The position numbers and the translations under genes are program-made. From positions 1 through 43,692 of the IMG/VR virus record IMGVR_UViG_3300035703_000158: a stretch of 43,692 nucleotides of DNA; one strand, 5' to 3'. The notes beneath the pieces were generated by a model. The model was not told the origin of the DNA, searched no databases, and saw only the letters and a program-made list of their open reading frames with translations. This DNA is from a virus. The stretch's first letter is position 1; every line of letters starts with the position of its first letter. This document shows, in pieces, positions 1-9,994 of the stretch.

Positions 1-1058
1 GCTGCGCCCTCGCAGCGGTCGCGCTGCGCCTTCAGGCGTTGTCGCTGGTAGTCCTTAAAGGCCTCAGACCCGAGCAGCTCCTGCGGCCGCGGCGGATCCT
101 CGAGCGGGTCGCGGGTGACAGGGAACAGGCCGCGGATGTTGTGGTCCCAAGCGCAGCGCTGCAGCTCAACCATGGCTGGGTCGATGCGCAGCTCCTGCTG
201 CTGCAGCTGGTTCACAGCCTTGAGCACCGGGGCCAACGCCGCCGGCGTCAGGTGGCTGAGATCCAGCCCGGCACGGCTGCGCACCAGCGGCTGCTTGTTG
301 TCCAGGTGCCCGCCGCCGTGCATCCCCTCCCATGGCCGCGGCGGCACAAGCATTGGCAGCCGGCGTGCCTGAAAAGGCCGCGGCGGGTTGGCCTTGATCA
401 CAGCCTCCGCTGTTGCAGTGGGCCGCACGGTGCAGCGCAGCCGACCATTGCGGCTGGTGGTGCCCACCTCCACCAGATCGGTGTTGCCCAGGATCACCTG
501 CAGCAGCAGGTTGCCCACCTCCACCTTCTCTGTGTGTGTCCAGCCGCTGCAGTCCAGGCGCAGCTGCTCGAGCACCTTGGTGTCGCTCAGCGCCCGTGCC
601 CCTTTGCGTTTGCGGATCAGCCGCATCAGGTCAGGGCTGGCCTGCTCGATCCGTCCGGCTTTGAGCTCGTCCTGCAGGGCCTTGCCGATGGCACCGGCCA
701 GGCGGCGCTGCTCAGGGCGCTGGCTGATCTGGTCGATCACCACACCCAGGGCGATGGCAGCAATGGACCTTGGTCCTCGGTTGGTGACGTGCAGCAGCAG
801 GGGCCAGGCGGCGAAGTGCGGGCCCGGCTTGTTGGGGTTGGCCAGCAGCTCCTCGAGCAGCAGGCCCAGGGCCACCGTCACCTGCTCGGCGTACTGGGTG
901 AACAGGGCCCGGCCGTACTCAGTGACGCTCTCTTTGCCCTGCGCTTTCAGCTTGGCTCGGGCATTGATTGCATCCCATTTCGCCCGCTCTCTTTCCCTCT
1001 CCTCCCTCTGCTTCTGCAGTTTGTCCACAGGGGTGGACGCGGGATTTCTGGGTTTCAA
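1..1058 (-). CDS. T7-like RNA polymerase, N-terminal part, second copy (cut by window edge)
   Basis: This is the first ~352 codons of a single-subunit, T7-family DNA-dependent RNA polymerase, which would transcribe phage middle and late genes. It aligns codon for codon with the 5' part of the complete gene at 40794-43205, with mostly silent changes and a few conservative replacements such as Lys/Arg. The assigned start is a TTG at 1058, the same position as in the complete copy; an ATG a few bases upstream is out of frame. The catalytic C-terminal half lies outside the window. The gene points away from the tRNA-like att site and integrase, as expected where attP separates int from rpo. Confidence 0.85.
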   Translation of the reverse strand, partial: MKPRNPASTPVDKLQKQREERERERAKWDAINARAKLKAQGKESVTEYGRALFTQYAEQVTVALGLLLEELLANPNKPGPHFAAWPLLLHVTNRGPRSIAAIALGVVIDQISQRPEQRRLAGAIGKALQDELKAGRIEQASPDLMRLIRKRKGARALSDTKVLEQLRLDCSGWTHTEKVEVGNLLLQVILGNTDLVEVGTTSRNGRLRCTVRPTATAEAVIKANPPRPFQARRLPMLVPPRPWEGMHGGGHLDNKQPLVRSRAGLDLSHLTPAALAPVLKAVNQLQQQELRIDPAMVELQRCAWDHNIRGLFPVTRDPLEDPPRPQELLGSEAFKDYQRQRLKAQRDRCEGA

Positions 1059-1092
1059 CTCGCATTTTTGGGTGCTTTCAGCAGTAATTCCA

Positions 1093-1106
1093 CCCCACCT
1101 GTGCAG
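1093..1106 (-). promoter_or_regulatory. CTGCA-type motif upstream of RNAP (copy 1)
   Basis: On the minus strand this reads CTGCACAGGTGGGG, a half-degenerate member of the CTGCA-N4-TGCAG family found upstream of capsid, tail and DGR genes. It lies 35 bp before the RNAP TTG start. It is identical in the second copy at 43240-43253, although the adjoining spacer has diverged. Confidence 0.45.
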
Positions 1107-1147
1107 AGATGGCTAACTCGTTGCTGCGGCTGATGGATGCGAGTGCT

Positions 1148-1161
1148 CTGCAGGGGTGGAA
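1148..1161 (-). promoter_or_regulatory. Inverted partner of the RNAP-upstream motif (copy 1)
   Basis: The minus strand reads TTCCACCCCTGCAG. This is the same motif as at 1093-1106 in opposite orientation, placed between the att-like tRNA fragment and RNAP. It is unchanged in the other copy at 43295-43308. The 20 bp at 1121-1140 between the two motifs carry six transitions between copies, so the motifs look selectively conserved. Confidence 0.4.
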
Positions 1162-1170
1162 TGACATTTT

Positions 1171-1214
1171 TCGGATTTTAAGTCCGCTGCGTATACCAAT
1201 TCCGCCATGCTCCC
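1171..1214 (-). other. attP-like 5' half of tRNA-Leu(UAA)
   Basis: The minus strand from 1214 reads as the acceptor strand (GGGAGCA), D-arm and complete anticodon arm of a tRNA-Leu, with loop CUUAAAA (anticodon UAA) closed by CGGA/UCCG. Similarity to a tRNA then stops: no variable arm, T-arm or 3' acceptor strand follows, so this is not a functional tRNA gene. The fragment sits about 120 bp from the gene block that ends with the integrase. The T7-like cyanophage P-SSP7 carries a 42-bp piece of its host's tRNA-Leu beside its integrase, so this is very probably the phage attachment core. It is a 5' rather than the usual 3' tRNA segment. Confidence 0.8.
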
Positions 1215-1251
1215 GCCTGTGACCGCAAGGGATCTCAGGGATTCAGCCGTC

Positions 1252-1285
1252 TGCGGAGACTGCCGAACCCAAGCAGTCTGCCGCA
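1252..1285. other. Hairpin between att-like site and the integrase-side genes
   Basis: An inverted repeat of 12 bp with one bulged base (arms 1252-1263 and 1273-1285, 9-nt loop) lies just beyond the stop of the 1336-1566 gene. There is no T-run, so an intrinsic terminator is doubtful. The inner seven pairs persist in the diverged second copy near 43399-43432 while the outer pairs weaken. It could be an arm-type recombination site or an RNA structure. I see no gene between 1215 and 1335. Confidence 0.35.
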
Positions 1286-1335
1286 GCGAGCAGGCAGAGA
1301 ACCCGATCCGGTGGACGCATCCACAACGGCAGGCG

Positions 1336-1566
1336 TCACTGGCTGAAGACGGGCAGCGGGGCAGGGCCAGCGGGTTCAGCCCGCACACCGCCGGGTGAGA
1401 AGGGGTCCATGCGCAGGCGGGTGCGGTAGTTCCCGTTGAAGTCCGGCACGGTGCAGCCGGTGAAGAGCGCGTTCTCTGGTGTGATCTCGACGCCGTAGTT
1501 CCAGCCGCAGGCCGGGCCATAGAGCTGGGCGATGAGGGTCAGCGCAAGCACCGGCGTGTCCTCCAT
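1336..1566 (-). CDS. Conserved 76-aa protein of unknown function beside att
   Basis: The product has no family I recognise. It has a short hydrophobic N-terminus (VLALTLIAQLYG) and two cysteines in a Trp/Tyr-rich segment (CGWNYGVEITP, FTGC), so a small exported or membrane-linked protein is possible. The ATG at 1566 lies inside the 3' end of the 1539-1775 gene, a 28-bp overlap that suggests translational coupling. The second copy at the right window edge keeps the frame with few amino-acid changes (for example Glu/Gln, Val/Ile), which supports real coding. It is the last gene before the att-like site. Confidence 0.6.
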   Translation of the reverse strand: MEDTPVLALTLIAQLYGPACGWNYGVEITPENALFTGCTVPDFNGNYRTRLRMDPFSPGGVRAEPAGPAPLPVFSQ

Positions 1567-1775
1567 GCCCAGTGGAGGAACAGCCCGATCGCAGCGAAGG
1601 GGGCAACAGCCCCCAGCGCAGTGATCACAAAGGGCAAGGCGATCAGGCCAATGCCGCTGATGGCGATGCAGGCCAGCAGGTAGGCGGCCAGCTCGATGGG
1701 CTTGGGCTTCCTGGCCGGCGGCCTGTCAGGCAGGAACTCGAAGGTGTTGTCGGGGTAGATGACCAGGCGGGTCAT
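1539..1775 (-). CDS. Small two-helix membrane protein downstream of integrase
   Basis: This is a 78-aa protein with a polar N-terminus (residues 1-27, ending in a Pro/Lys-rich stretch) and two adjacent hydrophobic segments around residues 28-48 and 50-70, then a basic tail (WRTRRCLR). That architecture is an integral membrane hairpin. The ATG at 1775 lies four bases after the integrase stop, so it is in the integrase operon. A superinfection-exclusion or other lysogenic membrane function is conceivable from position alone; sequence shows only membrane character. Confidence 0.6.
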   Translation of the reverse strand: MTRLVIYPDNTFEFLPDRPPARKPKPIELAAYLLACIAISGIGLIALPFVITALGAVAPFAAIGLFLHWAWRTRRCLR

Positions 1776-1778
1776 TGA

Positions 1779-2774
1779 TCAGTCCTCCAGGGCGTTGACG
1801 CAGGCGGCCAGCGCATCGGTGTGCAGGTGCAGGTAGCGCTGCACTGAAGCCAGGCTGGTCCAGCCGCCGTAGGCCATCAGCTGATGCAGCGGGATGCCGC
1901 GGCTGGCCAGCTTGCTCGCGCAGGTGTGGCGTGTGGTGTGGATCGACAGGGCACGGTCATCAGCCAGGCCCAGGGCGGCCTTGCCCAGGTTGAACAGGTG
2001 CTGATAGCGGGTGTAGCGGTAGGGCCAGACGCGATGGCCCGGCACTGCAGGCAGGTGCCCCTCCAGGGCCTCGATGGCACGGCGGGTGAGCGGCACTGAG
2101 CGGGGCTTGCCGTTCTTGGTGGCCCAGAAGGTGACGCGCCCCTTCACCAGGTCCACGTCCTGGCCCTTGAGCCGTTCAGCCTCACCCCACCGGCAGGCGG
2201 TCTCGAGCAGGAACACCAGCAGATCGGCTGCTGCAGGCTCACCGATCTGGCGGAAGTAGTGGCAGAAGCGATCGCGCTCTTCATCGCTGATCACCCGGTC
2301 CTTGGTGTTGGTCAGCCGCATCTGTTGCGGCATCCGCGGCAGCTCCTGCAGGTGCCCGTGCAGGTGGGCATCGGAGAGCATGGCTCGGATGGCTGCGACC
2401 TTCTTGTTGATGGTGCTGGGCCTGTTGCCTTTGGCCTGCAGCTTCTGGCGCCAGCCATCAACCAGGGCAGCGGTCACGTCGGTGACAGGGAAGTAATCAC
2501 CGAAGAACTCAACGGCCTCGCGGCTGTAGATGGCAGCGGTGCGCTCGTAGGCAGTGCCGGCCCAGCGGATGCGCATCGACAGCGCCCGAGCCTCCTTGAG
2601 GGTGAACGGTGGCGTGGCTGATGGCTTGGCCTCGCGTTGCAGCAGCAGCTCGAGCAGCTCACGCTTGCGGGCCAGGGCCTCGGCTCTGGTTTTGCATTTG
2701 CCTGTGCGGCGGGTGCCGTTGACGGTGACATCGGCAACCCAGCCATCGGCAACCTTTCGGATGCTTCCTGCCAT
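1779..2774 (-). CDS. int: Tyrosine recombinase / phage integrase
   Basis: This 331-aa site-specific recombinase should integrate and excise the phage at the tRNA-Leu site about 560 bp downstream. The C-terminal catalytic domain shows the first Arg in CRWGEAERLKG (about residue 195), HTTRH at 279-283, Trp305 in YGGW replacing the third His, and the nucleophile Tyr314 in RYLHL. A basic N-terminal arm and a SAM-like core domain (about residues 50-150) precede it. Length is normal for the family. The start is the ATG at 2774 behind a CA-rich leader with no Shine-Dalgarno sequence. The gene shares an orientation with the MarR-like regulator upstream (35-bp gap). Confidence 0.95.
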   Translation of the reverse strand: MAGSIRKVADGWVADVTVNGTRRTGKCKTRAEALARKRELLELLLQREAKPSATPPFTLKEARALSMRIRWAGTAYERTAAIYSREAVEFFGDYFPVTDVTAALVDGWRQKLQAKGNRPSTINKKVAAIRAMLSDAHLHGHLQELPRMPQQMRLTNTKDRVISDEERDRFCHYFRQIGEPAAADLLVFLLETACRWGEAERLKGQDVDLVKGRVTFWATKNGKPRSVPLTRRAIEALEGHLPAVPGHRVWPYRYTRYQHLFNLGKAALGLADDRALSIHTTRHTCASKLASRGIPLHQLMAYGGWTSLASVQRYLHLHTDALAACVNALED

Positions 2775-2809
2775 GGGACTGGTGGTGGTGGTTGTTGTGG
2801 GGTGAGGGC
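2775..2809 (-). promoter_or_regulatory. CA-rich SD-less leader of the integrase
   Basis: On the minus strand the gap before int contains CAACAACCACCACCACC ending six bases before ATG. There is no purine-rich ribosome site. The same leader type precedes the genes starting at 3916, 4403, 5447, 5846 and 6611. This copy lacks the hairpin seen in several of the others. Confidence 0.55.
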
Positions 2810-3127
2810 TCAGATGCCCTCGAGTTGCCTGACCAGGGCCTTGCCCTTGGCCGTCAGGCGAACCATGAAGCGGCGGCCTTCATCGGGATCCCTGAAGGTC
2901 TCGAGGAGGCCATGGCCGTCGTATCCCTTGCGGTGCTTGTCGCCCAGGGCATGGACGGTGCGGGACACGGTGGAGTTGGAGAGGTTCAGGGCCTCTTCCA
3001 GCTCCTCGTAGGTGCAGCGCCCTTGGGCGGCCACCACCAGGAAGACTTGCGCGTGGTGGATCGGGAACTGCGTGGGGTTGAGAACGGAGAAAGCAGCCAG
3101 AGCCCTCTCCAGCTGACGTAGATCCAT
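2810..3127 (-). CDS. MarR-like winged-helix transcriptional regulator
   Basis: This 105-aa protein has a single winged helix-turn-helix: helices in TYEELEEALNLSNSTVSRTVHALGD (residues about 39-63; the recognition helix is the NSTVSRTVHAL part) and a wing (LLETFRDPDEGRRFMVRLTAKG) ending in LTAKGKALV, the typical MarR C-terminal helix entry. It should bind DNA as a dimer. A perfect 14-bp palindrome (GACTCCTAGGAGTC) lies 17 bp before the ATG, suggesting autoregulation. It is directly upstream of int, so it is a candidate lysogeny or excision controller. No Shine-Dalgarno site is visible. Confidence 0.8.
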   Translation of the reverse strand: MDLRQLERALAAFSVLNPTQFPIHHAQVFLVVAAQGRCTYEELEEALNLSNSTVSRTVHALGDKHRKGYDGHGLLETFRDPDEGRRFMVRLTAKGKALVRQLEGI

Positions 3128-3143
3128 GGGCCAAAACGCCTGC

Positions 3144-3157
3144 GACTCCTAGGAGTC
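3144..3157. promoter_or_regulatory. CCTAGG operator A (perfect palindrome)
   Basis: GACTCCTAGGAGTC is a perfect 14-bp palindrome 17 bp upstream of the MarR-like gene. The core ACTCCTAGGAGT recurs exactly at 7384-7395 before another winged-helix gene, with degenerate copies at 7369-7380 and in 40755-40790. This is a likely operator for one of the phage regulators. Confidence 0.65.
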
Positions 3158-3257
3158 TGGCACCGGTGGAGCCATAGGCGCTTGGCACTGCCGATGGTCT
3201 CGACATACAGCGAAAGCCCGTACCGGCACTGGCCTGCGGGGATTTCGATGGAGGCAA

Positions 3258-3668
3258 TCAGGCAGATAGACACTGGCTTTTCTCGTCGCAGGTGGATAGC
3301 TGGACACCTAGGGCTTTAGTACAATCGTACTGCCCAAAATAGTTGCGGATGAGCTGTTCTCCCGCCTCACTCAGCTGCAGCTGCAGCCCACGCCGGTGCG
3401 GGTGAGGCCTCACCTCAAGCAGGGAGTAAGGGCTCTCCACCCAGGCGCCTTGGCTGTAGCGGGCCCGGCCCCTGAGCAGGGAGATCAGGCGGCTGATGGT
3501 GGCCGGTGGCAGGTCGTTGCCATCGGCATCTCTCATCGCCCGTTGCAGGTCAGGGATGTTGTCGATCCCGGAAGCGATCAGCAGCAGGGCCTCGGCGGCA
3601 TTGATCGGCACTGCCCTGTTTTTCTGGCGCAGGGCACCAAGGAAGCCAGCCAGGTTGGTGGTGTTCAT
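3258..3668 (-). CDS. Winged-helix regulator, 136 aa
   Basis: The protein resembles the MarR-like neighbour in plan: an N-terminal helix pair (INAAEALLLIASG), a helix-turn-helix with DLPPATISRLISLLRG (about residues 50-68), a wing (SPYSLLEVRPHPHRRGLQLQLSEAG) and LSEAGEQLI leading to the last helix. It is probably a DNA-binding dimer of the MarR/PadR-like fold. The ATG at 3668 overlaps the stop of the preceding 83-aa gene (ATGA), so the two are translationally coupled. A LexA-box-like sequence lies inside its 3' end. The target is unknown; the CCTAGG and GTGGAGAACA sites are candidates. Confidence 0.7.
   Translation of the reverse strand: MNTTNLAGFLGALRQKNRAVPINAAEALLLIASGIDNIPDLQRAMRDADGNDLPPATISRLISLLRGRARYSQGAWVESPYSLLEVRPHPHRRGLQLQLSEAGEQLIRNYFGQYDCTKALGVQLSTCDEKSQCLSA
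3318..3331 (-). promoter_or_regulatory. Cyanobacterial LexA (SOS) box candidate
   Basis: The minus strand reads AGTACGATTGTACT, a full match to the cyanobacterial SOS-box consensus RGTACNNNDGTWCB described for Anabaena LexA. It sits inside the 3' end of the 3258-3668 gene and about 190 bp upstream of the MarR-like gene, so it could place that gene and int under host DNA-damage control. Single short match; no promoter mapped. Confidence 0.45.
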
Positions 3669-3916
3669 GCCGCCACCTGCTGCTGGGCGTTGCGCACCTT
3701 CATCAGCGCTGCATTGGCAACGGCCAAGGCGTCAGCTGTATCAGCCCAATCAGCGCAGCCCTGAGGGCAGTGCTGCACCTGCAGCTCGAGCAGTTCGGTG
3801 AGCAGGTGGGTGCGGGGCTTGAGCAGATCAGCGATCAGGGCCGCTTCATCTGCAGAGATGGAGAGTTGCAGCACAGGTCTGCACTGGTGGTGAGTTGTTG
3901 TTGTCAGTGTCGGCAT
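3665..3916 (-). CDS. Hypothetical 83-aa protein coupled to the winged-helix regulator
   Basis: No family recognised. The N-terminus is Thr/His-rich (MPTLTTTTHHQ), echoing the MxTTTT starts of other genes in this arm; the body is a predicted helical protein (LSISADEAALIADLLKPRTHLLTELLELQ) with two Cys (CPQGC). The ATG at 3916 was chosen because it directly follows the CA-rich leader and the terminator-like hairpin; the longer open frame upstream runs through that hairpin. The stop overlaps the next start by four bases. Confidence 0.65.
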   Translation of the reverse strand: MPTLTTTTHHQCRPVLQLSISADEAALIADLLKPRTHLLTELLELQVQHCPQGCADWADTADALAVANAALMKVRNAQQQVAA

Positions 3917-3960
3917 GGGTGGTGGTTGTTGAAAAGGGCAGCACCGGCAAGGCGCTGCCC
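3917..3960 (-). terminator. Intrinsic-terminator-like hairpin plus CA-rich leader
   Basis: On the minus strand GGGCAGCGCC pairs with GGTGCTGCCC (10 bp including one G-U, 5-nt loop TTGCC; 3936-3960), followed by TTTT (3932-3935) and then CAACAACCACCACCC right before the ATG at 3916. A terminator would end the transcript from the ribbon-helix-helix gene before the next gene; the alternative is an attenuator or RNA-processing hairpin controlling it. Confidence 0.6.
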
Positions 3961-3968
3961 GATGGCCA

Positions 3969-4148
3969 TCAGTCAGTGGCAGGCATCCCCACCTCGAGCA
4001 CGTGAGCGCAGAGGTTGGAGAGGCTGCGGCCCTGCTCAAGTGCTGTGTTCAACAGCCTCTGGTGCAGTGCGTAGCTGATGGTGATCGTGATGCGCGCAGG
4101 GGATCGCTTGGCGAAGGCCACGCGGTCACGTAGCGAGAGAGGTTCCAT
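3969..4148 (-). CDS. Ribbon-helix-helix (Arc/CopG-type) small regulator
   Basis: This 59-aa protein is missed by a 60-codon cutoff. After a basic N-terminus (MEPLSLRDRVAFAKRSP) comes the pattern of a ribbon-helix-helix repressor: a beta strand with alternating residues (ARITITIS, about 18-25), helix A (YALHQRLLNTALEQG), a short turn (RSLSN) and helix B (LCAHVLEVGM). Such proteins bind operators as dimers of dimers. Unlike most genes in this arm it has a good Shine-Dalgarno site (GAGGAG, about 6 nt before the ATG at 4148). It sits just upstream of the terminator-like hairpin at 3932-3960. Confidence 0.7.
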   Translation of the reverse strand: MEPLSLRDRVAFAKRSPARITITISYALHQRLLNTALEQGRSLSNLCAHVLEVGMPATD

Positions 4149-4220
4149 GGGATCTCCTCGGTGGATACAGGGCAGAGCCCTGCAGGTGGCCGAGCCTCTG
4201 GGCCCGGCCGCGGGCAGAGA

Positions 4221-4403
4221 TCAGGGGCCCGGGAAGGCGGTGAGGGTGCTGCGGTCCGGTATCGGCTGCGGTGCTGGCTGCACTGCGCTGATGGGACTGG
4301 CCAGGCGTTGCGGTGCCTGCTGCGGCGGCTGCGGTTGTGGCCAGGCCAGGGCAGCCAGGCCCCAGCCGAGCACCACAAGCGTGCAGTAGTCAGAGAGTTT
4401 CAC
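4221..4403 (-). CDS. Small membrane-anchored Pro-rich protein
   Basis: This 60-aa product has one N-terminal hydrophobic helix (residues 5-20, YCTLVVLGWGLAALAW) followed by a Pro/Gln/Ala-rich tail without secondary structure. No family recognised. The start is a GTG at 4403, accepted because it follows the arm's usual leader (CAACAACCACCGCC) after a strong hairpin at 4444-4475. Between its stop and the next gene (4149-4220) there is only a short CAGGGC/GCCCTG hairpin. Confidence 0.5.
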   Translation of the reverse strand: MKLSDYCTLVVLGWGLAALAWPQPQPPQQAPQRLASPISAVQPAPQPIPDRSTLTAFPGP

Positions 4404-4478
4404 GGTGTTGGCGGTGGTTGTTGTGGCAGGCAGAGGCCTGCAGGGGCACCACCGGCAAGGCGCCGGGAGGTGCCCGGG
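4404..4478 (-). promoter_or_regulatory. Hairpin plus CA-rich leader cassette
   Basis: After the ardC-like stop the minus strand forms a nested hairpin (outer GGGCACC/GGTGCCC at 4444-4450 and 4469-4475, inner CCGGC/GCCGG), then CAACAACCACCGCC before the GTG start at 4403. The stretch GCGCCTTGCCGGTG is shared with the hairpin at 3936-3960, so the two are related copies. Confidence 0.5.
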
Positions 4479-4484
4479 CAGGCG

Positions 4485-5447
4485 TCAGGCGTCGGCCTCT
4501 ACGTCAGGGCCACAGATGGCATTGGCCGCGGCTGAGGCCTGGCCCAGGGCCTTGAAAAGCGCCTTAGGGCCCTCGCGCAGCACACCGGCCCAGCTGCCCA
4601 GATAGGCGGCGTGGTTCTCGGTGCTGCTGCTGATCTCAAGCCGGTTACAGATCAGGAAGGCGGCGAGCTCTGCCACCAGCTCCTCGCGGGCGTAGTCCGC
4701 GGTTCCCTTGCCGGTGCCCAGCTTGCGGTTGAGCCTGCTGCTGTGGCCGGTGCTGTGGGCCTGCTCGTGCGCCCAGGTGGCGTAAAGGCCTTCGGCGGTC
4801 TCGAATTGGGCCCTGGTGGGCATGGTGATCTGATCAGCGCTCGAGCTGTAGAAGGCGCGATCACCGCCCCAGGTGGTGGGCACCGGCCAGGCACCGAGCA
4901 CCTGCTCGGCCAGGGCCAGCCTTTCCGGCTCGGGCTTCACCACCACGGCACCAACGGCCGCGGCGATCCGAGCCTCGAGGGCCTGCTGTGCCTCTGGTGT
5001 GCTGCCCACCAGGTCGGCCACGTTGAACACGCAAACCGGTTTGAAGCTGACCCAGGCAGCCACCAGCGGCGAACCATCCGGGCCGGTGACGGGCTTGCCC
5101 TGCTCGTCTTGCTGCTCGCGCTTGTTCAGCTGTGGCCGCAGCACGTAGCAGCCTTTTGAGCCCTTGCGAGGGTGCCAGCCCTCAGCCTTGGCTTGAGCGC
5201 TACCCAGCCACAAGGGCAGGGAGAACCCGCGGCAGGCTGCCCACATCTCGAGCAATGCAGGGTTACTGCCCCGGTAGGGCTGGCCGGTGATCAGGTTGCG
5301 GTGCTGGCCCTGGTGGCCGTGTTGGGCCCAATCCCGGCGCCAGGGGTTGACCCCCTGCTCGAGCAGATCAACTAGGGCCTGGCACAGCTTCTCTTCAGCT
5401 GTGGGACCGTCGTACGTCTTGCGGGCCTTGGTGGTGGTGGTGGCCAT
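4485..5447 (-). CDS. ardC: ArdC-like antirestriction protein (ssDNA-binding + metallopeptidase)
   Basis: The 320-aa product matches the ArdC/TraC-type family: an N-terminal ssDNA-binding domain (about residues 15-150, with YRGSNPALLEMW and WVSFKPVCVFNVADL) and a C-terminal zincin-like domain with HEQAH at 227-231 plus His235, and a downstream helix (YAREELVAELAAFLIC) carrying the conserved Glu cluster. Family members protect incoming DNA from restriction; several ride on plasmids and phages. Length is typical. The start is the ATG at 5447 (MATTTT), preceded by the CA-rich leader and no Shine-Dalgarno site. Position in the early arm fits expression on entry. Confidence 0.85.
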   Translation of the reverse strand: MATTTTKARKTYDGPTAEEKLCQALVDLLEQGVNPWRRDWAQHGHQGQHRNLITGQPYRGSNPALLEMWAACRGFSLPLWLGSAQAKAEGWHPRKGSKGCYVLRPQLNKREQQDEQGKPVTGPDGSPLVAAWVSFKPVCVFNVADLVGSTPEAQQALEARIAAAVGAVVVKPEPERLALAEQVLGAWPVPTTWGGDRAFYSSSADQITMPTRAQFETAEGLYATWAHEQAHSTGHSSRLNRKLGTGKGTADYAREELVAELAAFLICNRLEISSSTENHAAYLGSWAGVLREGPKALFKALGQASAAANAICGPDVEADA

Positions 5448-5529
5448 TGGTGGTGGCGTGGTGGTGGTTGTTGTTGGGCAGCCGTGAGGGCTGCAGAGAA
5501 GGCCCGCAGGCCCTCAGTGCAGCCGTCAC
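5448..5529 (-). promoter_or_regulatory. Repeated intergenic cassette, copy 1 (hairpin + CA leader)
   Basis: A 45-bp unit at 5485-5529 recurs at 5878-5922 with a single mismatch. On the minus strand it begins at the upstream gene's TGA stop, forms a long hairpin (outer GGCTGCA/TGCAGCC), and is followed by CCCAACAACAACCACCACC and then ATG. Gene stop, hairpin, leader and start therefore form a reusable module. Confidence 0.7.
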
Positions 5530-5846
5530 CAGATCGCGCAGTCACCGTCACGGATCGCAGCAGCGAGGGCCCCGGCTGCGGCCTTGGCTTCGGGCCCCTG
5601 GGCCACGGCTTGGTAGTTGGTGAGGGCCGATGCGGCCATCCAGTCGGTGCGGGCTAGGTGGCGGCGCTTGGTGGTTGTCCAGTAGGGCCGCACCCGGCCC
5701 ATGCGCAGGGCCCAGAGCTCACGGCGGCCGGCCTCATCCCAATCCGGGATCAGCGACATCTCGAGGGCCTCGGCTGCAGCCACTAGCAGCCGTTGGGAAT
5801 CAGGGCCGCAGGGGATCGGCATGGCGGCGGCGGTGGTGGTTGTCAT
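5526..5846 (-). CDS. Hypothetical 106-aa protein
   Basis: No family recognised. The protein begins MTTTTAAAMP, the Thr-run start shared by three neighbours, and continues as an Ala-rich, mostly helical protein with several Trp (ELWALRMGRVRPYWTT, TDWMAASALTNYQAVA). It lies between the sliding-clamp-like and ardC-like genes, separated from each by near-identical 45-bp hairpin units, so it is probably an early-expressed accessory protein. The start is the ATG at 5846 right after the CA-rich leader; an internal ATG nine codons in is possible. Confidence 0.6.
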   Translation of the reverse strand: MTTTTAAAMPIPCGPDSQRLLVAAAEALEMSLIPDWDEAGRRELWALRMGRVRPYWTTTKRRHLARTDWMAASALTNYQAVAQGPEAKAAAGALAAAIRDGDCAIW

Positions 5847-5922
5847 CGGTCGGTGGTGGTTGTTGTTGGGCAGCTGGTGAGGGCTGCAGAGAAGGCCCGT
5901 AGGCCCTCAGTGCAGCCGTCAC
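5847..5922 (-). promoter_or_regulatory. Repeated intergenic cassette, copy 2 (hairpin + CA leader)
   Basis: This is the second copy of the 45-bp stop-plus-hairpin unit (5878-5922), followed by CCCAACAACAACCACCACC before the ATG at 5846. Its one difference from copy 1 (5507 versus 5900) lies in the hairpin loop region. Confidence 0.7.
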
Positions 5923-6611
5923 TTACGGATCTGAACCGGCATCAGCAGGTACTCGAGCTCGCAGCCCTCGAGGCCCGGCAGTTCGCAGCTGCAGGCGAAC
6001 ACCATCGGGTTGTGGGCCCCGTTGCACTCCATGCGCACAACGCCGTTGTGGCTGTAGCGACTCACCTCAGCCAGGAACTGGCCCAGATAGCTGGCGTTCC
6101 ATGCGATCGGTGCACCCGGCTGATGGGTGAAGCGATCAGGCCAGAGCTGATCGAGGTGCGGGAACTGGTAGCAGTCGGCCTCGTGCTTCCAGGGCCTGGC
6201 CTCGATCAGATCGCCGGGAGGGAATTTGCCGCCCTTGGCAACACGGCCGCCGAGCACCTCCACAACGCCGTCATCGCGCAACACAGCCCAGTGCCCATAG
6301 GTGATGCGCTTGCGCAGTGCTGCAGCGCTGATCAGCACTTGATCGGGCACCAAATACCAGTGCTCGCCAGCCGGTAGCCGGAAGCGAAAGGCCCGGTGCC
6401 CATCAGTGCTCTCGATCGTGATCTGCGCATCACCAGAACGCCGCACGCTCACCAGCTGCAGCGCTTGCTTCGCCTCATCCCTGCTGGCGAACTGCGCAGC
6501 TACGTAGAGCACCTGCGCAGGTAGGCAGGCCACAGCAGCGCAAGCGCTCGCACGGTGCAGCGCCTGCAGCTCACCTGCGCTCGCCGTCATCAGTTCGGTG
6601 GTGGTGGTCAT
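5919..6611 (-). CDS. DNA polymerase sliding-clamp (DnaN)-like protein
   Basis: This 230-aa protein reads like a shortened bacterial beta clamp. It has a strand pair ending in a TDGHR motif (LQLVSVRRSG...ESTDGHRAFRF, about residues 66-90), a YQFPHLDQLWP segment like the clamp's inter-domain linker, an ASYLGQFL helix, and the C-terminal LEYLLMPVQIRK resembling the MPM/MPV-(R/Q)-(L/I) end of DnaN. Bacterial clamps have about 370 residues in three domains, so this has room for two. The start is at 6611 (MTTTTEL) by analogy with neighbours; 6590 is an alternative. Inverted GTGGAGAACA sites lie upstream. A clamp would recruit the host polymerase, which matters because no phage polymerase is seen. 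Confidence 0.6.
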   Translation of the reverse strand: MTTTTELMTASAGELQALHRASACAAVACLPAQVLYVAAQFASRDEAKQALQLVSVRRSGDAQITIESTDGHRAFRFRLPAGEHWYLVPDQVLISAAALRKRITYGHWAVLRDDGVVEVLGGRVAKGGKFPPGDLIEARPWKHEADCYQFPHLDQLWPDRFTHQPGAPIAWNASYLGQFLAEVSRYSHNGVVRMECNGAHNPMVFACSCELPGLEGCELEYLLMPVQIRK

Positions 6612-6640
6612 CAGTCCGGTGGTGGTGGTGGTTGAACCGT
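6612..6640 (-). promoter_or_regulatory. CA-rich SD-less leader of the clamp-like gene
   Basis: The minus strand reads CAACCACCACCACCACC shortly before the ATG at 6611, matching the leader class of this arm. There is no hairpin here; the GTGGAGAACA inverted repeat lies immediately upstream instead. Confidence 0.5.
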
Positions 6641-6649
6641 TCCCCACAC

Positions 6650-6688
6650 GTGGAGAACAGTTCCCACGTCCTAGCACGTGTTCTCCAC
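6650..6688. promoter_or_regulatory. Inverted GTGGAGAACA operator pair
   Basis: GTGGAGAACA (6650-6659) and its exact reverse complement TGTTCTCCAC (6679-6688) are separated by 19 bp, about two helical turns arm to arm, some 40 bp upstream of the clamp-like gene. A third copy (40734-40743) lies 14 bp before the SSB start. This is a likely operator pair controlling replication genes. Confidence 0.6.
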
Positions 6689-7368
6689 AGGTGGAGGTTT
6701 TGGGGTGGTGGCGTCAGTCGCTATCTGTAACAAAACTTCATAAGCCCCAGGGGCCAGTACTCCGCAGCCGGGCCACCTGCCCAGGCCTTGAGAACAGGAA
6801 TGAGAATCGTTCTCACGGGAAAAGGGGCCAGCCACCAGGCCCGCCAGCCCGCCGCCACCACGGCCAGCGGATCAGCAATCCGCAAGAACACCAGCCACCA
6901 CCAGGGCCAACGCCGCGCACACCTGCCCCGGCTGCAGCCACACCGCGCAGCAGGCCCCCAGAAGGGCCAGGAAGGGCGTCCCACCATCTCGCCTAGGGGA
7001 AGACACCGGCCGCCCCTCCAGCAGCCCCCAGAGGACGAGCAGGGGGCCACGGGGGGTCTTGCCCGGCGCGCGTCAGGGACACACCCCCACAAGACGCGAC
7101 CCAAAAATGGAAATTGGGCTTCGGGTCTGCAGAGCGTTTCGATGCCCCCCCTTTTCTGTGAGGTGCCCGCTTCACCGGGGCGCTGTTGGGCTGTCGCAGG
7201 TTCGGGTGGGTGTCCTGGGTTTTCGGTCTCTGACCAGTAGAGAAATCAGAGGAGCCGGTAGGAGGGGCAGTGGCGAGAGGGGTTGCTCTCCACCTGTGTT
7301 GCTCTGTGGTTAATCTGGGCTTGTCCAAACCCATTGCCCCCACTGGGTTGCGTCCAGAAGGGGCAAGT
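6689..7368. other. Divergent control region without a confident gene
   Basis: About 680 bp separates the minus-strand left arm from the plus-strand block. It contains a perfect TGAGAA-TCG-TTCTCA inverted repeat (6801-6815), a related GAGAACAG word at 6790-6797, and CTCTGA/TCAGAG arms around 7225-7251. Two minus-strand frames look weakly protein-like: 6721-6987 (88 aa, ATG, Trp-rich and hydrophobic) and 6872-7006 (44 aa, GTG, two hydrophobic segments). They overlap in different frames, so at most one is real. Other open frames here look like antisense shadows. A promoter cluster, a replication origin or both are possible. Confidence 0.4.
6801..6815. promoter_or_regulatory. TGAGAA-TCG-TTCTCA palindrome
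   Basis: This is a perfect inverted repeat with 6-bp arms in the divergent control region, sharing the GAGAAC core with the GTGGAGAACA sites 110-150 bp away. It may be an extra binding site for the same regulator or a small RNA hairpin. Confidence 0.35.
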
Positions 7369-7395
7369 CACTCCTAGGTGTCCACTCCTAGGAGT
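7369..7395. promoter_or_regulatory. CCTAGG operators B1 and B2 (tandem)
   Basis: CACTCCTAGGTG (7369-7380) and ACTCCTAGGAGT (7384-7395, perfect palindrome) have centres 14 bp apart and end about 30 bp before the ATG at 7427 of a winged-helix gene. The second is identical to the core of operator A at 3144-3157. A tandem arrangement fits cooperative repressor binding over a promoter. Confidence 0.65.
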
Positions 7396-7426
7396 CGGGT
7401 CCGTCAGCATCACCGGTACTGACTGC

Positions 7427-7801
7427 ATGAAGCCTAGAGAAGACGGTGACGAGAACTTCGTGATGGTCCACCAACGCGATCTCGATTCGACCATTGCCCT
7501 GCTGGGTGAACGGAAGCTGGAGCTGCGGGATGCCGCGGTCTTCCTGGTCCTGCTCAACTACGTCAACTGGCGCAGTGGCAGAGCCCATGTCTCAACCAAG
7601 TACATCGCTGAACGGTTGAACGTGAAGCTGCCGGTGGCGGTGAGCGCCATCACCCGCTTGCGCAAAGAGAACCTGGTGCGGCGAATCATTGATCAACGCA
7701 CCGGTGAGGCCTACTTCCTCATCAACCCTTTCCTTGCCTCGGTGGGAGGCCCTAAGCGCCGCGGCCATCTCTGGCAGCAATTCACTGATTCACTGGAATG
7801 A
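7427..7801 (+). CDS. Winged-helix DNA-binding regulator, first gene of the plus-strand block
   Basis: The product is 124 aa from the ATG at 7427. Residues about 29-95 form a winged helix: an N-terminal helix (KLELRDAAVFLVLLNYVNW), a helix-turn-helix of the 'stay in place, attack' type (STKYIAERLNVKLPVAVSAITRLRKENLVRR) and a wing (IIDQRTGEAYFLINPFLAS). This resembles phage and plasmid RepL/MarR-like proteins, so it may be a repressor or a replication initiator. Tandem CCTAGG operators precede it. The open frame extends further upstream, but the 7427 start is preferred because the extension crosses the operators; an ATG at 7463 (MVHQRD) is an alternative. Confidence 0.75.
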   Translation: MKPREDGDENFVMVHQRDLDSTIALLGERKLELRDAAVFLVLLNYVNWRSGRAHVSTKYIAERLNVKLPVAVSAITRLRKENLVRRIIDQRTGEAYFLINPFLASVGGPKRRGHLWQQFTDSLE

Positions 7802-7843
7802 CATCTGCTGTCTGGGTAGCCTTCTCCCATCTGCTCTCCACGC

Positions 7844-8074
7844 ATGTATCTCTCAAACGACGAGCGGATTCGTCTTGGCCTTCAACACTACGGAAGTGAT
7901 GTCCCTGAAGATGTTGTGGCCGCTGCTGAAGCCGCTCTGGCAGCGCCTTGTGGAGGTGCTTGCCCTGCCCCAACGCCGAAGACCACAAAGGCACGTGCGC
8001 GTAACAAGAAGGGGGAGTTTGAGGGTGATAACCCCGAGACATCGCAGGTGAATGAGGCTTGGGTTGACGGCTAA
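7844..8074 (+). CDS. Small lysine-rich conserved phage protein
   Basis: This 76-aa protein has an N-terminal helix (SNDERIRLGLQHYG), an Ala-rich middle and a basic, flexible C-terminus (KARARNKKGEFEGDNPETSQVNEAWVDG). Its end resembles the short 'KGEF-GDDPxTPxVNEAW' proteins I know from cyanophage genomes, whose role is unknown; DNA or virion association is a guess from the charge. It lies between the winged-helix gene and terL on the same strand. Confidence 0.6.
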   Translation: MYLSNDERIRLGLQHYGSDVPEDVVAAAEAALAAPCGGACPAPTPKTTKARARNKKGEFEGDNPETSQVNEAWVDG

Positions 8075-8122
8075 GGTTGCGATGCCAACCCAGGTGGTGC
8101 TGGGAGGTTCACTGCCAGTCAT

Positions 8123-8182
8123 TGCGGCTGGTGGTGGTTGTTGGGAGAGCCCTTCTGCGTCCTCGGATGTAGGAGGGCTCTC
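8123..8182 (-). promoter_or_regulatory. Orphan hairpin + CA-leader cassette in front of terL
   Basis: Read on the minus strand this is GAGAGCCCT/AGGGCTCTC (8174-8182 and 8145-8153; 9 bp, 20-nt loop) followed by CCCAACAACCACCACC and an ATG at 8122. That is the same cassette that precedes left-arm genes, yet the frame behind this ATG runs antisense to 7844-8074 and does not look like protein. On the plus strand the hairpin's 3' arm overlaps the terL Shine-Dalgarno site (AGGAGG, 8171-8176), so it may limit terminase translation. Confidence 0.5.
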
Positions 8183-8185
8183 TTG

Positions 8186-9994
8186 ATGCGATGGGATCCC
8201 CTCCCGCCTGAGCTTTGGCCCTTTCCGCATTTCCTCTGCTACCTGCTGCGGGAACTGAACCTGGCCGACACGCCCACCCTCCGGCAGCTGGAGGTGGCGC
8301 ATTGGCTGGAGACCGGCCCCGACCGTTCCATCACCACCGCTTACCGCGGCCTGGGGAAGAGCTTTGAGTCTGGTGGCTATGCCCTCTGGCGTCTGCGGCA
8401 TGACCCCTTCACCGAGAAGATCCTGATCCCGGCGGCCACCGCGGAGAAGGCTGAAGAGGTGGCCACCTTCATGGCCCGCTGCATCCGCGACGTGGACATC
8501 CTGCGTTGCCTCGAGCCTCGACCTGATGGCCGGTCCTCGATCAAGGCCTTTGATGTGGGGCCAGCGGTGATCGACCAGAGCCCCAGTGTCCGCACTGTGG
8601 GAATCCTGTCGCCATCCCTCACCGGCAAACGCTGCACCCTGGCGCTACCGGACGACATCGAGACGCTGAACAACTCGATCACGCCGCTGAAGCAGGAACG
8701 GCTGGCTCAGGCCGTCACCGAGCTCGAGGCGATCATCAAGCCCGATGACCCGGGGTTTGACCCTGAGGCACCTAGGGATTACACGCAGGCGGGCCTACGG
8801 CAAATCTTCCCAAGACAGATCCGGTATCTGGGAACTCCGCACCTTGAGAGTTCGCTGTACCTACGCCTGGTGCGTGAACGGAACTACGCGATTCGGTTCT
8901 GGCCGGCGCGATTCCCGGACCCGGCTGACCCTGATGAGTGGGATTGCTACGAGGGGAACCTCTCGCCGGAGATCGCTGAAGCGGTGCAGGGCAACCCGGC
9001 CCTGGCGGGGGATCCAACCGACCCTGAGCGCTTTGGCCACCACGAGCTGCTGAAACGCGAAACGCGGATGACGCGGGCTGCGGTGCAGCTGCAGTACCAG
9101 CTCAACTGCAGGCTGAGCACTCTGGATCGCTACCCGATCCGGCTGGGTGATCTGCTGGTGATGGACCTTGACGGCAAGGCCCTGCCGGAGGTGGTGGTGT
9201 GGGCCACGGGGCCTGAGCAGCGCATCCAGGATCTGTTGTGCGTCGGCCTGGGGGCTGATCGCTACTACCACCGTCCAGCGGTGGTGAATGGCTGGGTGCC
9301 GCAGGAGGAGACGTGGCGCTGCGTGTTGGCGATCGACCCATCCGGCCGCGGCAGTGATGAGCTGGCCTGGGCGGTGATTGCTGAGCTGAACGGCAACTTC
9401 TTCCTGCTGGAATCAGGCGGCACCACGCGGGGCTATGAGCCGGAGGTGTTGACGATGCTGGCCAGCAGGGCCAAGCGCTGGCAGGTGAACTACTGCGTGG
9501 CTGAGAGCAACATGGGCGACGGCATGTTCACCGCACTGCTGTCACCAGCGATGGCGAAGGTGCATCCGGTGTCGATTGAGGAGGTGCGTGTCAGCCAGCA
9601 GAAGGAACGTCGCATCGTCGATACCCTCGCGCCATTGGTGCAACAGCACCGGCTGGTGGTGAGCACTGAGTTGATCCGGCGCGATTATCACGACGCGGAG
9701 CGTGATCCAGAAACAGGCCACCAGCGCTCGCTGATGTATCAGCTCAGCCGCATCACGGTGGACCGGGGTTCACTGACCTTTGACGACCGGATCGACGCGC
9801 TGGCGTTGGGTGTCAAGTTCTTCACTGATGCTGCTGCCCAGGATCAAGAGAAAGCCAAGGCCGCCCGTCAGGACGAGCTCGAGGAGACGATGCGGCAAGC
9901 CTGGTTTGATGAGACAGGCGCCAGTATCGACGCACTGGCGATGGGTTGGAAGCCGCAGCCGAAGGGCAAGGCCTATGGCGGTGTCACGCGGTAG
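8186..9994 (+). CDS. terL: Terminase large subunit (T7 gp19-like)
   Basis: The motor-nuclease packages phage DNA into proheads through the portal. The 602-aa protein carries a Walker A-like P-loop, YRGLGKS (about residues 53-59), Walker B LALPDDIE (about 151-158), and an RNase H-like nuclease domain with acidic motifs LAIDPSGRG, CVAESNMGDG and FDDRIDALALG. Length equals that of T7 gp19. The start is the ATG at 8186, nine bases after AGGAGG; the longer frame upstream would include the hairpin. It is on the plus strand, opposite to all structural genes, and its 3' end overlaps the antisense small-subunit gene by 11 bp. Confidence 0.92.
   Translation: MRWDPLPPELWPFPHFLCYLLRELNLADTPTLRQLEVAHWLETGPDRSITTAYRGLGKSFESGGYALWRLRHDPFTEKILIPAATAEKAEEVATFMARCIRDVDILRCLEPRPDGRSSIKAFDVGPAVIDQSPSVRTVGILSPSLTGKRCTLALPDDIETLNNSITPLKQERLAQAVTELEAIIKPDDPGFDPEAPRDYTQAGLRQIFPRQIRYLGTPHLESSLYLRLVRERNYAIRFWPARFPDPADPDEWDCYEGNLSPEIAEAVQGNPALAGDPTDPERFGHHELLKRETRMTRAAVQLQYQLNCRLSTLDRYPIRLGDLLVMDLDGKALPEVVVWATGPEQRIQDLLCVGLGADRYYHRPAVVNGWVPQEETWRCVLAIDPSGRGSDELAWAVIAELNGNFFLLESGGTTRGYEPEVLTMLASRAKRWQVNYCVAESNMGDGMFTALLSPAMAKVHPVSIEEVRVSQQKERRIVDTLAPLVQQHRLVVSTELIRRDYHDAERDPETGHQRSLMYQLSRITVDRGSLTFDDRIDALALGVKFFTDAAAQDQEKAKAARQDELEETMRQAWFDETGASIDALAMGWKPQPKGKAYGGVTR

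Follow-up and report, generated by a model that had tools for sequence, protein, structure and literature searches.

Gene-junction modules and a co-varying anti-leader in the terL 5' UTR point to a possible RNA switch in T7-like cyanophages

Trans-acting small RNAs of the GcvB type use a G/U-rich seed to pair with the C/A-rich ribosome-loading regions of many mRNAs. In cluster K mycobacteriophages, a short repeat termed SAS lies close to start codons, and about half of its copies have imperfect inverted repeats upstream; its function is unknown (PMC3203893). The associated ESAS is a 17-bp imperfect inverted repeat with a variable spacer of 4–13 bp (PMC3203893). T4 and other phages carry intercistronic CUUCGG hairpins, one of which, at the 5' end, stabilises the gene 32 mRNA (Tuerk 1988, as summarised in PMC8948821). 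Finally, the T7-like phage LUZ100, which has temperate features, encodes MarR and an integrase in one operon and produces an unexplained antisense RNA in its structural region. SAS/ESAS are the nearest gene-boundary repeats to those described below, CUUCGG hairpins the nearest hairpins and GcvB-like seeds the nearest pairing logic, but none of these systems, LUZ100 included, combines the features found here.

The window, i.e. the whole stretch of DNA analysed (43,692 bp; IMG/VR virus record IMGVR_UViG_3300035703_000158), belongs to an integrase-bearing T7-like cyanopodovirus lineage. Like GcvB, it sets one G/U-rich antisense stretch against many C/A-rich leaders. Unlike GcvB, this putative antisense tract lies in the 5' UTR of a phage mRNA, and seed and targets switch together between lineages. 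The leader repeat resembles SAS in standing directly upstream of many starts (six in the window and most early genes in the relatives) and in being specific to a phage lineage (PMC3203893). The junction hairpin, here termed R1, differs from ESAS in its UGA:UCA base and UNCG loop and does not fit the ESAS consensus (PMC3203893). Moreover, the absence of Shine-Dalgarno (SD) sites, the stop codon in the stem, the covarying stems and the complementary anti-leader all set this locus apart from SAS and ESAS. As far as the CUUCGG hairpins are described in PMC8948821, R1 shares with them a UNCG-type cap and a position between phage genes; it differs as a defined family with a built-in UGA, a 2x2 loop, an alternative P3 pairing and a leader, placed at consecutive junctions. 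The LUZ100 antisense RNA differs in location from the terL-UTR tract. Synechococcus phage S-SRP02 (MW822601) agrees with the window in its early-arm layout, and it too has the hairpins, the CA leaders and the tract in the terL UTR. The first-pass annotation of this DNA, which had described a reusable gene-boundary cassette, missed the stop codon within the hairpin, the mutually exclusive alternative fold and the co-varying anti-leader in the terL 5' UTR.

Stop, hairpin and leader at the early gene junctions

Leftward from position 6611 on the minus strand, the early arm encodes a DnaN-like protein, a 106-aa protein, an ArdC-like antirestriction protein and several small proteins including an RHH protein, and further along a MarR-like regulator, a tyrosine integrase and the start of a T7-type RNA polymerase. 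The DnaN-like product is similar to sliding clamps of DNA polymerase (PHROG processivity factor, E 5.5e-8) and is annotated in S-SRP02 as DNA polymerase III beta subunit. S-SRP02 (locus L018) is the nearest isolate, with 79.5% nucleotide identity over 66% of the first 12 kb; farther relatives are marine uvMED phages, e.g. Stopalavirus S38C3. The early-junction features all lie on the minus strand:

6612..6634, minus: CA leader of the DnaN-like gene (start 6611); no R1 hairpin
5919-6611, minus: DnaN-like gene, first gene of the leftward early operon
5870..5921, minus: junction hairpin 1, with the stop UGA of the DnaN-like gene, a UACG loop and the alternative P3 arm
5847..5869, minus: CA leader of the 106-aa gene (start 5846); no SD; unpaired 0.83
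5526..5846, minus: 106-aa gene, bounded by two cassettes
5478..5528, minus: junction hairpin 2, with the UGA of the 106-aa gene and a UGCG loop (R1 model 75.9 bits; z -5.3)
5448..5477, minus: CA leader of the ArdC-like gene (start 5447)
4426..4487, minus: junction hairpin 3, long form, with the UGA of the ArdC-like gene
4404..4425, minus: CA leader of the 60-aa gene (start GTG 4403)
4168..4222, minus: diverged R1-like hairpin at the 4221/3969 junction, then an ordinary SD leader (dG -8.7)
3936..3960, minus: different hairpin, intrinsic-terminator-like, then UUUUC, at the 3969/3665 junction before the leader of 3916
3917..3931, minus: CA leader of the 83-aa gene (start 3916)
2775..2797, minus: CA leader of the integrase (start 2774); no R1 hairpin

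The sequence CAACAACCACCACC, with at most one mismatch, occurs ten times in the window, always on the minus strand, against an expectation of 0.03; none of 100 shuffles reached ten. Nine of these matches lie at the starts at 2774, 3916, 4403, 5447, 5846 and 6611, always on the coding strand, which bears out the leaders that the first-pass annotation had placed at these six left-arm starts. The tenth (8130-8143) is the complement of the tract in the terL 5' UTR. The leaders consist of A and C only, free of G and U, and contain no SD. In the window, the SD duplex dG of their genes ranges from -2.6 to +2.9, whereas late genes show means of about -5 and -6.3; the late genes thus have the ordinary SD sites ascribed to them on average, not in every gene. 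With the window and S-SRP02 combined, CA-leader and late genes differ in SD (p = 0.002) and in A/C content (p = 0.001). This test is conservative because the early set includes three left-arm genes without a CA leader (4148, 3668 and 3127, the first of which has an SD with dG -8.7). The repeat had also been thought to run into coding sequence in four products beginning M-(A)-TTTT: three do so exactly (6611, 5846, 5447) and the fourth (3916) reads MPTLTTTT.

SD-independent initiation, as suggested previously, receives indirect support from the lack of SD sites in CA-leader genes, the SD sites that late genes have on average, and the A/C-only composition retained in other lineages with other leader sequences. 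Lack of leader conservation had been set beforehand as a possible refutation of the cassette, and it was not observed. Among 20 host-lineage genomes, the exact leader motif occurred in one, with no excess over a reversed control, and a host-derived habit was rejected as its origin. The dominant RNase E signature in Synechocystis has a U at +2 (PMC10989929). As A/C-only leaders lack such a U, nuclease avoidance may also play a part.

The R1 hairpin is built from a UGA:UCA base, a 1x1 mismatch, a 7-bp stem (GGCUGCA/UGCAGCC in the window), a 2x2 pyrimidine loop and an upper stem that usually ends in a UNCG loop. Two nearly identical units had been noted, and 5484-5529 and 5877-5922 are indeed 98% identical over 46 nt. 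Their sole difference, C/T on the plus strand, reads UGCG versus UACG in the RNA; since the differing base is the N of C(UNCG)G, the tetraloop is kept in both copies. Of 26 distinct short upper stems, 19 are C(UNCG)G with N being A, G or U, and UUCG itself is in the minority. A long form, found in S-SRP02 and at 4426-4487 in the window, has an extended upper stem. Hairpin 1 scores 78.6 bits with the R1 model and folds at -34.2 kcal/mol (z -5.4), and hairpin 3 scores 24 bits and folds at -41 kcal/mol (z -4.6); across the three family members, fold z-scores range from -3.7 to -5.4. The hairpins reported before several leaders therefore resolve into one family (before 5846, 5447 and 4403) and a different hairpin (before 3916), while the leaders at 6611 and 2774 have no R1 hairpin. 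The counterpart of the 4221/3969 junction in the relative L009 gave E 0.39 with R1.

Comparison across lineages shows strong covariation. In 18 distinct elements, 98.7% of cells are paired and seven pairs have changed on both sides; in 23 distinct elements from several lineages the values are 97.2% and nine, with 0 of 500 shuffles on every measure. Unselected element extraction mis-anchors some long elements, which lowers the pairing score, and alignment counts were used alongside. In most of 62 junctions the UGA that opens R1 is the in-frame stop of the upstream gene, with the next start 17-36 nt after; in several, the gene already ends 5-8 nt before the element, and the UGA is still retained. 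On this comparative evidence, R1 is a real RNA element.

The 3' stem arm of R1 is followed, after a gap of about 5 nt, by a second complement (GCAGCC-CUCAC-GGCUGC), which defines the alternative stem P3. Its variants co-vary as GCAGCC/GGCUGC, GCAGGC/GCCUGC, GCAGGG/CCCUGC, GCAGUGC/GCACUGC and GCUGG/CCAGC. P3 stems of 5-7 bp are present in 25 of 25 elements, a mean reached by none of 2000 shuffles. P1 and P3 are mutually exclusive, the full hairpin being far stabler (-34 to -37 versus about -12 kcal/mol).

Several known types of element were considered for R1. A terminator scan found none at the R1 hairpins, which are followed by GGCUGCCC-AACAAC without a U tract, and only 3936-3960 has UUUUC; an intrinsic terminator, which calls for a G+C-rich hairpin with a U tract behind it, was rejected. 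Rfam 15, scanned over window positions 1-9000, returned no family above the gathering score; a tRNA fragment below threshold and two miRNA matches due to chance were all that emerged, and a known Rfam RNA was likewise rejected. On inspection only, the integron attC box GCCCAAC is present at some junctions and absent at others, no GTTRRRY partner was seen, and the phage integrase was assigned to ordinary phage integrase families.

The R1 model, built from 18 elements, matched about 60 early-strand junctions; loci that had not contributed to the model added about 20. The proposed search of cyanophages with a cassette profile has thus recovered the element at about 80 junctions in relatives, including lineages unused in building (L118, L122, L139, L120, L086, L100, L102). 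S-SRP02 carries R1, and Stopalavirus S38C3 has one match (E 3.5e-7). In host-lineage genomes, searched with stricter filters than the phages, R1 was found in 0 of 60, versus 8 of 10 phage records positive by the same search, and a host-encoded hairpin was rejected; an exact-pattern scan of genome contigs for the hairpin was empty. The marine Oinezvirus and Nohivirus loci (L067, L068) have no R1 above 0.001 and no R2, the terL 5'-UTR element described below, at terL; an R2 match in L068 falls inside terL and was taken as chance. An R1 match of 27.9 bits at 1580-1627 (minus strand), inside a small coding gene, recurs in L020 and weakly in S-SRP02, and is probably a coding-sequence hairpin. None of the words promoter, terminator, hairpin, Shine-Dalgarno and intergenic appears in the main text of the paper on S-SRP02, which thus leaves the feature undescribed.

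The terL 5' UTR and its anti-leader tract

On the plus strand, rightward genes lead to terL, which is preceded by a structured RNA:

7427, plus: winged-helix gene
7844, plus: 76-aa gene
8070..8188, plus: terL 5'-UTR structured RNA (R2), with H1 at 8084-8108, H2 at 8109-8137 and H3 at about 8144-8182
8129..8146, plus: anti-leader tract UGGUGGUGGUUGUUGGG, reverse complement of the early CA leaders
8186..9994, plus: terL (terminase large subunit), SD buried in H3

The terL product is 93% identical in amino acids to S-SRP02 DNA maturase B (tblastn). R2 scores 107.7 bits in the window, and its model detects it in almost every terL relative, including those in which the gene that follows is another small gene or a different one (L106, L107, L111, L038, L039, L046). 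The H1 loop GUGGU is conserved, and the 3' arm of H2 overlaps the tract. H3 comprises 16-19 bp and, in every lineage examined, buries the terL SD (unpaired probability 0.00); translation of terL must therefore depend on this hairpin being opened. In H1 and H3, 18 of 24 consensus pairs show compensatory changes across high-GC (about 60%) and low-GC (38-41%) lineages, and the plus-strand hairpin is stabler than its minus-strand counterpart in every lineage. No conserved leftward ORF uses the tract at 8130, whereas the rightward gene before it is conserved; a role as leader of a leftward gene was rejected. In L116, near 5310-5450, the SD-burying H3 is present twice in tandem before terL.

In the window, the tract matches all eight leader-like runs found, each over 10-15 nt exactly. 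The 80 terL relatives that we fetched include lineages with other leaders. These lineages use ACACCAACCAACC, CAACCACCAACC, ACCAACCACC, CCCAACCACCACC, CACACCACC, AACAACAACCAACC, AACAACCACCAACC and CACCACCACC, and every one of them has a terL tract complementary to its own leader. Across nine lineages, which we grouped according to leader type, every tract is best matched by its own leaders, and this identity assignment is the single best of 362,880 pairings. Even a deviating base is shared: a T in the leader of L107 (CAACAACCACTA) is mirrored by an A in the tract. Because A/C against G/U is of low complexity and some foreign matches reach 8-14 nt, it is the lineage-specific order that carries the signal. 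In L102 and L103, the tract matches its own leaders over a short stretch (5-8 nt), and some loci have only one or two identifiable leaders. Relatives without R2 (L113, L140, L143, L146) have 0-1 leader-like runs, some of these loci being short. The tract thus shows the complementarity to several leaders, maintained by co-variation, of a putative trans-acting antisense RNA.

In L077, L087 and S-SRP02, complementarity runs 18-21 nt into the 5' arm of H3. The leader that matches into H3 is that of the integrase (seen for L022, L034, L035 and L018), hinting at a possible cross-talk between integrase and terminase.

Gene order around the modules

The 106-aa family follows the DnaN-like gene in the window, L012, S-SRP02 and L022, precedes that gene in L033 and follows ArdC in L044; in L046, the 106-aa family stands directly before ArdC, with no DnaN-like gene. 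The family is thus found in at least four contexts. It is missing in L009 and L020, where one module replaces two. This single module has TACG like the window's first copy and CACGGCTGCC like its second, as expected of recombination between modules, although L012 has TACG in both copies, which makes the loop base by itself weak evidence. ArdC is preceded by the DnaN-like gene, the 106-aa gene, family 15, family 32, another gene or the promoter itself, precedes many different families among the relatives, and is missing in S-SRP02.

In contrast, the block from 0 through MarR to the integrase, which has no R1 hairpins, is found in the same order in about 17 of 20 relatives. That R1-separated genes are reordered and the hairpin-free block is nearly fixed supports the gene-shuffling idea, and with it modules as likely exchange points for early genes. 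The first-pass annotation had called for such a gene-order comparison, and in about 20 relatives cassette-bounded genes do change neighbours. A literature search on boundary-repeat recombination in phages found nothing.

Proposed mechanism and its rivals

A leader shared by a gene block, together with its matching mirror-complement, points to a so far undescribed RNA switch that would act on the whole block. In the proposed module, the UGA stop of the upstream gene is placed in the hairpin base, the 3' arm and the next segment can form an alternative short hairpin, and the A/C leader would load ribosomes without an SD and run on into the first codons. A ribosome finishing at the UGA would cover the 5' arm, so that P3 could form; processing of the 5' arm could likewise release P3. 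As stop and start signals both lie within the module, genes can be gained, lost and reordered via recombination between modules, and as the leader is common to the block, one antisense sequence can address all of it. From the comparison we infer that terL RNA base-pairs with the early leaders. Such terL transcripts, or a processed piece of them, may block translation at the onset of late expression. The pairing probably serves early-gene shut-off, a purpose favoured because the tract would pair immediately ahead of the start codon. Part of the tract is taken up by H2 (unpaired 0.10-0.47 for matches of at least 10 nt), so H2 must open for pairing, and terL mRNA would have to be abundant enough for several mRNAs. 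We regard the module of stop, hairpin and SD-free leader, combined with a terL antisense tract that shuts off early genes, as the best joint explanation and a fairly probable one. That one shared ribosome-loading leader and one co-evolving terL antisense allow modules to be freely shuffled while expression and control are preserved is an extension we put forward with some hesitation.

The main rival is concerted evolution without function: the tract would be only an inverted leader copy, homogenised by recombination and without a role in trans, and the modules would still be boundaries and recombination sites. Some homogenisation does occur, since leaders are near identical within a genome despite unrelated genes, and near-identical long hairpins stand at junctions of different gene pairs. 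However, the tract always stands at the same position, within a structured plus-strand RNA that evolves by compensatory changes, and there is no leftward gene that it could serve. It is kept even in lineages down to 38% GC, and is flanked by H2/H3 stems that are lineage-specific rather than copied along with it. We consider this account unlikely. We also give a low probability to ordinary hairpins acting as intercistronic stabilisers, terminators or RNase III sites, with leaders as unstructured spacers and neither switch nor trans pairing. CUUCGG-type hairpins between phage genes have varied functions including mRNA stabilisation (PMC8948821), and the U-free leaders, set against the Synechocystis RNase E signature (PMC10989929), suit such spacers. 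The missing U tracts and empty terminator scan at R1 speak against terminators, and the conserved UGA:UCA, 2x2 loop and alternative P3 exceed what a stabiliser needs. The stabilisation of mRNA ends suggested by the first-pass annotation is possible.

Pairing might also work in the reverse direction, with early mRNAs, above all the integrase leader, binding the terL UTR, altering H2/H3 and tuning terminase translation, which could serve e.g. the lysis-lysogeny choice. The fully buried terL SD and the long integrase-leader match into the H3 5' arm in L077, L087 and S-SRP02 fit this reading, but in the window and most relatives the match ends at or near the H3 base and is too short to open 16-19 bp, and we find it rather doubtful. 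A double-stranded DNA site for a lineage-specific protein (operator, replication or phage RNA polymerase), with incidental orientation, would co-vary within a lineage too. The motif's fixed position just before start codons, its A/C-only strand always coding for early genes, its extension into codons, its lack of palindromy and its varying repeat length and phase make such a site very improbable.

If the preferred reading, leaders controlled by a terL antisense tract, is true, the locus would represent an RNA-level operon code of interchangeable gene junctions and one antisense key. It would give T7-like cyanophages with an integrase, about whose regulation little is known, a post-transcriptional switch from early to late expression or between lysis and lysogeny. 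The natural SD-free leaders and the many co-evolved leader/anti-leader pairs offer test material for RNA-RNA recognition, and the modules for how phages shuffle genes without breaking regulation.

Two further observations concern the integrase and the regulators. A tRNA-Leu-like fragment at 1153-1214 (minus strand) adjoins the integrase; it scores 27 bits with the Rfam tRNA model, just under threshold, and is probably the attP for integration into a tRNA gene. Palindromic ACTCCTAGGAGT-type sites at 3146-3160 and 7370-7397, upstream of the MarR-like and the rightward winged-helix genes, are candidate operators of a phage repressor and are present at both places in S-SRP02 as well.
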